Below are positions 22,301 through 24,140 of a DNA stretch of 61,763 nucleotides, piece by piece. A program made the translations under genes and the position numbers. The notes beneath the pieces are model-generated. The model had not been told where the DNA came from. It was given only the letters and a program-made list of their open reading frames with translations, and searched no databases. The DNA comes from Candidatus Poribacteria bacterium (lineage in GTDB: Bacteria; Poribacteria; WGA-4E; WGA-3G). The stretch covers positions 1-61,763 of the forward strand of contig JAJECK010000076.1 of the NCBI GenBank assembly GCA_022822085.1, written 5' to 3'. Positions within the stretch are counted from its first letter, which is position 1. Each line of letters opens with the position of its first letter.

Positions 22301-22675
22301 TAATTGGAAAAATTACATCGGATTTAGAAACTGTTATTGAATTAGAAATTGGTGGCTCAAGTCAATGGAAAAAAAATTGAGTGTATAGTTGACACAGGAT
22401 TTTCTGGTTATTTGGCTTTACCAAGTGAATTAATTGAGGTCCTTAAACTTCCAAAAATTGATGACCAAGAGGTACTCCTCGGTGATGGCACTGTGGTATC
22501 TTTAGAGAAATATGTGGCAAAAGTGCTATGGCATAGTGAAGAACGAAGTGTCTCTGTGCTAAGAACAGAGGGTAGTTCTATATCTGGCATGCTTCTTCTG
22601 TTTGGTAGTCGAGTAATTTTAGATGTCATAGAAAATGGTAATGTGAGCATTGAGGTTTTGCCATCAATTCAATAG
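22297..22675 (+). pseudogene. Clan AA (retropepsin-like) aspartic protease, frameshifted
   Basis: The ATG at 22297 overlaps the upstream stop. The first frame encodes MIIGKITSDLETVIELE and ends at a stop about 28 codons in. A second frame from about 22349 carries the rest: VNGKKIECIVDTGFSGYLAL with the catalytic DTG, then LLGDGTVVSLEKY and a final LLFGSRVILDV strand. Removing one A from the GAAATT around 22345 joins the two frames into a normal protein of about 125 residues. It could be a single-base decay, a sequencing or assembly error, or translation from the TTG at 22349. An N-terminal truncation at that TTG would still keep the active-site motif. Confidence 0.65.
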
Positions 22676-22701: not shown

Positions 22702-23070
22702 GTGCAGCAGGCTATTGTCTGGATTGTCGTATTATTTATTCTCATTGTGGTGGGTTTTGGTATGTATTATGCCATACGCACTCCACGCACTACCTCGATG
22801 ACGTATCCTGCGGATAAGGGAACAGACTTTATTGATGTCTCAGAATATCCAGAGGAGATGCAAACACTTTACGCGATATTCACTCGGAAATGCAGCAGAT
22901 GTCATACCATTGCACGTCCGATTAATTCTGACTTTAAGGCTGAGGAATGGCGAAAATATGTGCTGAAGATGATGCGCAAACCGGGGTCCGGACTCAACCC
23001 AAAAACAGCTGAACAGATAATCAAATTCTTAACCTACGATACACAACATAGGAAGAAAAACACATTATGA
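22702..23070 (+). CDS. Membrane-anchored c-type cytochrome-like protein
   Basis: 122 residues from a GTG start. An N-terminal membrane segment (AIVWIVVLFILIVVGFGMYY) is followed by a periplasmic domain with one CxxCH haem-attachment motif, CSRCH, and downstream KMMRKPGSGL, where a Met ligand could lie. This resembles single-haem cytochrome c domains that carry electrons at the membrane. The stop overlaps the start of the redoxin gene (ATGA), so the two are coupled, which suggests a joint redox function. Confidence 0.8.
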   Translation: MQQAIVWIVVLFILIVVGFGMYYAIRTPRTTSMTYPADKGTDFIDVSEYPEEMQTLYAIFTRKCSRCHTIARPINSDFKAEEWRKYVLKMMRKPGSGLNPKTAEQIIKFLTYDTQHRKKNTL

Positions 23071-24140
23071 CAAAACTGATACTTACCACTTGTGTTATAT
23101 TGTCCATTGCTACAACATTGTATGCATCCCCTGTCAGTGACCTCAAAGTTTCAATTGATAGTAAACTAATCACATTTTCTGCATCTCCTATATTGAAAAA
23201 TGATGTGTGGTTGGTGCCAATAGATACTCTCTGTAAACAGTTAGGGTTAAAGGTTGAGAGCCCGGATAGTGGAAAGATGGTAGTTATCTGCGATAGTGGA
23301 GAATCGGAATTGTGTGTGCCACTCAATTTGGGTGAACATGCATTCAACATTGATAACGTTACTTATGCTAAACTTATTGACATCATTGAACCGTTCGGAT
23401 TTGAGATTTACAAGATCTCCGAAACCGAATTTGAGATTGTTAGACCAGAACATCTTGCCCCGCACTTTATACTACCCGATCTTGACATCAATCCAAAACG
23501 TCTGCAGGATTTTCGTGGGAAGAAAACGCTTCTCTATATTTGGGGTTCATGGTGAGCATGTCGTGGACAGCTGCCAGGCTGGCAGCAATTCTACGCGAAA
23601 CACCGTGATAAACTAAATCTTGTCTCAATAGCGATTGATGCGCAAGGGGCATCTGTAGTGCGACCATGGCACGATAAAGCCAATGCAGAATTCGTCACAC
23701 TTGTTGATTCACAGAATATCCTTGGGAATCTTTTCAACCTAAAGGCAATTCCCTACGGTGTTATGATTGACGAAGCAGGACGGTTGGTCAAATTCCCTTT
23801 CAGTATCAATGTTGCTAAAAAAGAGACGCTCGCTATGCTGGAAAAATGGTTGTCGGATCCGGCATATAATGCGACACTACTCAACGATGTGAAACCAGCA
23901 AACATATCGCAAAACCCAAAAGTTATTGAAGCGAATGCGCGTTTTCAACTTGGACGAACTCTGTTAGAGATAGGTAAAAAGACTGAAGCAATGGCGGAAT
24001 GGCGGAAGGCACTGGCATTAGACCCGAAAAACTGGATTATACACAAGCAGATTTGGGCTGTTGAACATCCCGACAAATTTTATGATGGTAATGTCGATTA
24101 TGGGTGGCAGAAGGCACAGTTGGAATCAGAAAAGAGATAG
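23067..24140 (+). CDS. Exported redoxin/TPR protein with candidate selenocysteine
   Basis: One reading frame of 358 codons with a single in-frame TGA at 23553-23555 (residue 163). Before it: a signal peptide (LILTTCVILSIATTLYAS), a domain resembling the copper-amine-oxidase N-terminal fold (about residues 25-125), and the start of a thioredoxin/TlpA domain (LPDLDINPKRLQDFRGKKTL). The TGA falls exactly where the first active-site Cys is expected: W-G-S-W-[TGA]-A-C-R-G-Q-L-P. The frame stays open for 194 codons after it, completing the redoxin fold (SIAIDAQG, LKAIPYGVMIDEAGRLVKF) and adding a TPR-like tail. A perfect 17-nt hairpin lies 15-31 nt after the TGA. Selenocysteine is the simplest reading; a nonsense mutation cannot be excluded without SelA/SelB/SelC evidence. 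The spacing is U-x-C, one residue shorter than classical CxxC. Confidence 0.75.
23570..23586 (+). promoter_or_regulatory. Candidate bacterial SECIS hairpin
   Basis: GCTGCCA-GGC-TGGCAGC is a perfect 7-bp stem with a 3-nt loop beginning GG. It starts 14 nt after the in-frame TGA, and the loop is 21 nt away. Bacterial SECIS elements lie within the coding region just after UGA and carry a G early in the apical loop. The E. coli fdhF minihelix is also 17 nt at about this distance (established knowledge). Function here is inferred. Confidence 0.7.

Follow-up and report, generated by a model that had tools for sequence, protein, structure and literature searches.

Locus and Domain Organization

The window analysed here comprises 61,763 nucleotides of contig JAJECK010000076.1 from the draft genome (5.6 Mb, 96.5% complete) of a Candidatus Poribacteria bacterium (assembly GCA_022822085.1), and its forward strand bears two overlapping genes that are the subject of this report. 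The upstream gene (22702-23070, forward strand) encodes 122 residues with an N-terminal membrane anchor and a CSRCH haem-c-type motif (22891-22905), and it overlaps the start of the second gene through the ATGA at 23067-23070, as a first-pass annotation of the DNA had described. The second gene occupies a frame of 358 codons (23067-24140, forward strand) running from ATG to TAG and interrupted by a single internal stop, a TGA at codon 163 (23553-23555); translation confirmed the earlier report that 194 open codons follow this TGA, and orthologues are likewise full-length with one TGA. Read through with selenocysteine (Sec, U) at position 163, the frame would yield a protein of 357 residues with the putative redox motif W-U-A-C-R (WGSW-UAC), whose second redox residue, Cys165 (23559-23561), stands at +2. 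The motif is UxC (U-A-C) and not UxxC, with one residue fewer than the CxxC of ResA/TlpA. An ORF resembling clan AA aspartic proteases (22349-22675) lies upstream of the gene pair but recurs at only 12 of 65 loci, and is thus no constant feature of the neighbourhood.

The protein begins with a signal peptide at residues 1-20 (23067-23126), assigned by eye from the sequence, residues 1-22 being of low pLDDT in the structural model. The N-terminal domain that follows (23154-23441) contains an invariant Cys75 and a Cys83 that is at least 90% conserved (codons within 23289-23315), a candidate second redox pair, and is succeeded by a redoxin domain of the ResA/TlpA fold (23451-23789; PF00578, 1.4e-13) and by a TPR hairpin and a strongly conserved C-terminal motif, DPxNWIIxKQIWAxExPxxFYxGxVDYxWQ (23931-24119), delineated from Pfam and the alignments. 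Of the three-part architecture proposed at the outset, the redoxin is supported in Pfam (AhpC-TSA/Redoxin), the copper amine oxidase-like part is marginal, Cu_amine_oxidN1 matching the first half of the N-terminal domain barely above its cut-off, and the TPR match falls below threshold; the N-terminal domain is absent from the scanned Chloroflexota relatives. Modelling of the read-through protein with AlphaFold, using 32 relatives, gave a single confident fold (pLDDT 89, pTM 0.84), whose redoxin part superposes on ResA (PDB 1st9) with a Z of 17.8 and an rmsd of 2.1 over 133 residues (VIA-align, mainly residues 127-269). The nearest solved folds, from Foldseek, are ResA, CcmG and TlpA, with peroxiredoxins lower, and the comparison thus places the predicted domain in the thioredoxin-like ResA/TlpA class.

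Conservation of the UGA Codon

Codon 163 is TGA in all 114 loci of a tblastn alignment (65 distinct sequences) drawn from Poribacteria, Armatimonadota, Planctomycetota and Chloroflexota. A search of 85 genomes of the phylum Poribacteria, with matches accepted at E up to 1e-20, found the gene in 60, with the in-frame TGA in 59; the contig of the remaining match ends before the site. Fifty loci came from a scan of 84,980 species, Armatimonadota, Planctomycetota and Chloroflexota included. When 400 Chloroflexota genomes were searched with a profile, strong matches spanning the site proved to be TGA forms, and the 18 loci fetched from this phylum read W-x-S-W-U-x-C-R. Every Sec-encoding relative has a single residue between U and C (UGC in most orthologues as against UAC in the window protein), and Cys165 is invariant in both alignments. 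Recurrence of the identical TGA in many independent assemblies excludes a sequencing error at 23553. Selection has been purifying on both sides of the codon; over codons 164-197, immediately after it, pN is 0.01-0.14 against a pS of 0.49-0.78.

Among 392 Planctomycetota genomes TGA occurs in eight matches, and here too was the sole Cys form found, a full-length protein (L161) reading W-C-T-C-R, whose DNA does not have the hairpin codons described below and in whose genome a search for SelB found none. The expectation that homologues would have Cys or TGA at this position holds for all close homologues, which have TGA, and for this Cys-bearing one. Other residues, which would have spoken against Sec, are absent among close relatives and confined to eleven distant Planctomycetota paralogues (L163, L166-L175). 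In these, Ser, Asp or His replaces Sec and the second Cys is missing as well, so that they are apparently redox-dead. SelB is present in four of the five tested genomes bearing such paralogues.

Two irregular copies were also encountered. One of three matches in a single Chloroflexota genome (G391) has two TGA and one TAG in frame and may be a decayed copy, a product of poor assembly or a frame error; an orthologue on contig C1 of another genome (G009) is broken at codons 219-222 into two frames that overlap, an assembly frameshift being the probable cause.

A SECIS-Like Hairpin Downstream of the UGA

A perfect 17-nt hairpin (23570-23586, forward strand), with 7-bp arms and a GGC loop, lies 15-31 nt downstream, counted from the A of the TGA, just as the first-pass annotation had stated, and overlies the codons for QLPGWQ. 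Taken by itself, in a single sequence, it is weak evidence for Sec: across the window, 2.5% of TGAs have one of equal strength close by, and the fold of the 40-nt hairpin region does not stand out from shuffled sequences (z -0.6), as against a z of -3.9 for the surrounding 80 nt. Its significance stems from its conservation among relatives. None of the 77 distinct sequences compared lacks any of five pairs (19-33, 20-32, 21-31, 22-30 and 23-29, counted from the T of the TGA). These define a conserved core in which 23571-23575 pairs with 23581-23585 around a loop N-G-[GU]-N-U; the two flanking pairs of the window hairpin, G-C on the outside and A-U next to the loop, show no such conservation.

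The outer pair of this core is C-G in 68 of the 77 sequences, U-A in seven, U-G in two and C-A in none. At the codon level, the stem shows a double synonymous change from CTG..CAG to TTG..CAA: Leu169 is encoded by CTG or TTG only, against the six Leu codons used elsewhere in the gene, and Gln173 by CAG alongside CTG and by CAA alongside TTG; the remaining sequences show a U-G wobble, and in no case C-A. Codon entropy at these two positions is 0.41 bits, whereas the remaining conserved residues give 1.8-2.3 for Leu and 0.86-0.98 for Gln. None of 500 shuffles reached the observed covariation score but, because that control does not preserve relatedness, changes had also to be counted on a tree of 39 proteins, where the U-A state requires at least six. 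Neither codon change that turns C-G into U-A alters the protein, and the simple interpretation is that selection acts on the RNA. Covariation on both sides is seen for one of the five stem pairs, the other four being fixed or wobbling. A search of Rfam with the hairpin gave zero matches at E up to 5, a result that bears only on the families included in that collection.

Comparison of relatives thus establishes a SECIS-like constraint, and a conserved SECIS-type stem 3′ of the UGA, the mark of a bacterial selenoprotein gene, is evident from the aligned sequences. The element resembles the bacterial SECIS of E. coli fdhF in being a hairpin within the coding region just 3′ of the UGA, in its apical-loop G, and in the presence of SelB in the genome. 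It differs from the fdhF element in having a conserved core of 5 bp with a 5-nt loop and in lying about 3 nt farther from the UGA.

Selenocysteine Machinery

All four genes whose presence had been proposed as a check, selA, selB, selC and selD, were found in the same genome. The tRNA-Sec (78 bits, anticodon tca, ARAGORN) is encoded about 50 bases after selB and on the same strand, and the protein matches score 354 bits for SelB, 611 bits for SelA and 367 bits for SelD. The selD gene (C140:29818-30744) carries a single in-frame TGA of its own and probably specifies a SelD that contains Sec, of which examples are known. SelB scored above the cut-off in 76 of the 85 Poribacteria genomes. Of 17 TGA carriers tested from Chloroflexota and Planctomycetota, 16 have SelB, whereas it was not found in the single Cys carrier. 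Nor was selB found in four Poribacteria carriers (G004, G007, G022 and G034; 73-83% complete) or in two Chloroflexota carriers (G088 and G390), probably a consequence of incomplete assemblies.

How the UGA Is Read

Under the standard code the frame ends at 23555 and a GTG-started ORF of 160 amino acids begins at 23658, so that the UGA could be a true stop, leaving a 162-residue N-terminal product and a separate ORF or pseudogene. That would, however, split the redoxin domain in two, and the stretch between TGA and GTG is among the best conserved of the gene and contains the redox Cys. Neither would a pseudogene hold TGA, never TAA, TAG or a sense codon, at one position across four phyla. A truncated gene or pseudogene was rejected on TGA conservation and purifying selection, and termination at codon 163 accordingly seems extremely improbable. 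The open frame through one TGA would also suit decoding as Trp, Gly or Cys without selenium, whether by an altered code or by leaky readthrough, but TGA terminates five of the 30 long ORFs of the window as well as the overlapping upstream gene, and among the 62 relatives whose frame is complete it ends this same gene in 14. Code reassignment was rejected given that TGA is a working stop in these genes and relatives. Against selenium-free decoding in general stand also the complete Sec machinery, the compensated synonymous changes in the hairpin that follows the UGA, and the Cys found in the one sense homologue that retains the redox pair; we consider it very unlikely, if marginally less so than a true stop.

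The comparative evidence of a conserved UGA, a conserved hairpin and the cognate machinery, together with the Cys form in a homologue, strongly supports the original proposal that the UGA specifies Sec, and from it we infer that Sec is inserted at codon 163. We put the probability that the gene encodes an exported, Sec-dependent redoxin at roughly 0.9.

Proposed Function of the Selenoprotein

In the mechanism we envisage, a ribosome reaching UGA 163 would be met by SelB carrying Sec-tRNA(UCA) and bound to the hairpin 15 nt downstream, and Sec would be inserted. The protein, presumably exported, would then act outside the cytoplasm as a ResA/TlpA-type redoxin through its U-A-C pair, Sec163 serving as the attacking nucleophile and Cys165 resolving the intermediate as a selenenylsulfide, with the reduction of oxidised thiols as the outcome. 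In a weaker step of the scheme, the Cys75/Cys83 pair of the N-terminal domain would probably relay electrons to or from the U-A-C pair.

Fold and motif make a disulfide-reductase role for the redoxin reasonably likely, although the activity is not assured because UxC differs from the canonical CxxC. Sec is often the peroxidatic residue in selenoproteins, and the protein might instead be a peroxiredoxin-like thiol peroxidase in which Sec reduces peroxides and Cys165 resolves; AhpC-TSA is its top Pfam match, and the UGC kind has been classed as Prx-like in the literature (PMC2398784). Yet Sec occupies the position of the first Cys of the ResA/TlpA CxxC, not that of the peroxidatic Cys of TxxC, the solved folds closest to it are the ResA, CcmG and TlpA ones named above rather than peroxiredoxins, and the nearest model has been named ResA-like by NCBI. 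A peroxidase thus appears unlikely, without being far-fetched, and a thiol-disulfide reductase is the role we favour.

The likeliest partner or substrate of such a reductase, another weaker step, would be the CxxCH protein encoded by the overlapping gene. This gene is conserved at 51 of 65 loci, lying just upstream throughout the main Poribacteria family and in one other case not adjacent, and every one of the 51 copies retains its CS[RK]CH motif; beyond the main family the neighbour is absent or non-adjacent. Searches against cytochrome c families gave the CxxCH protein sub-threshold matches only (PF13442, 17.3 bits against a cut-off of 27). The gene arrangement suggests co-translation and a shared role with the selenoprotein, a functional link that we regard as tentative. 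More speculatively, this largely Sec-only UxC branch, with a selenenylsulfide, an N-terminal Cys pair and a co-translated membrane CxxCH protein, could form a selenium-dependent module for thiol-redox or cytochrome-maturation chemistry characteristic of Poribacteria, and could partly explain the retention of the Sec system by sponge symbionts, though we would rate this composite idea as rather improbable.

Poribacteria are uncultured and largely sponge-associated. Sponge-symbiont genomes are reportedly enriched in selA and selB (PMC5649159), and the gene described here, found in 60 of 85 Poribacteria genomes, offers a specific candidate for one served by that machinery. It adds to this phylum a selenoprotein well supported by comparison, in which the constraint from the hairpin can be read at two codons. 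Gene annotation that lacks an appropriate model would break it at the UGA.

Relation to Known Selenoproteins and Redoxins

A literature search combining Poribacteria and selenoprotein found no paper, nor did one for WAxxUGC. The initial view that the architecture is undescribed stands only in part, for the kind is known, while the divergent branch seems new. "Prx-like (UGC-containing)" selenoproteins were recognized in the Global Ocean Sampling survey of 2008, with 855 Cys homologues as against 46 Sec forms (PMC2398784), were later named "UGC-containing TlpA disulfide reductase family protein" (PMC13188914), and have been relisted as UGC-containing Prx-like/TlpA-like selenoproteins in reviews of 2022 and 2026. 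Going by their published descriptions, the present protein is like them in its AhpC-TSA/TlpA domain and UxC motif, whereas its close relatives are Sec only. Its nearest model, NCBIfam NF041054 (WAxxUGC_long, "ResA-like WAxxUGC motif-containing protein"), shares the ResA-like redoxin, Sec in a UGC motif, a similar length and part of the N-terminal region, and its alignment also spans the TPR and C-terminal part in more distant members of the class. Against an equivalog cut-off of 300 bits, however, the window protein scores 145 and its relatives 128-181, and none of the 85 Poribacteria genomes exceeds the cut-off. Thiol-disulfide oxidoreductases of the ResA/TlpA/CcmG type resemble it in fold and in the position of the redox motif, but have CxxC where this protein has UxC, and here there are in addition a two-Cys N-terminal domain and a C-terminal TPR part. 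The protein therefore belongs within, or next to, the catalogued UGC-type bacterial selenoproteins. Its apparent novelty lies in a diverged branch that bears Sec almost exclusively and preserves two N-terminal Cys, the gene overlapping, in the main Poribacteria family, that of a membrane-anchored CxxCH protein.
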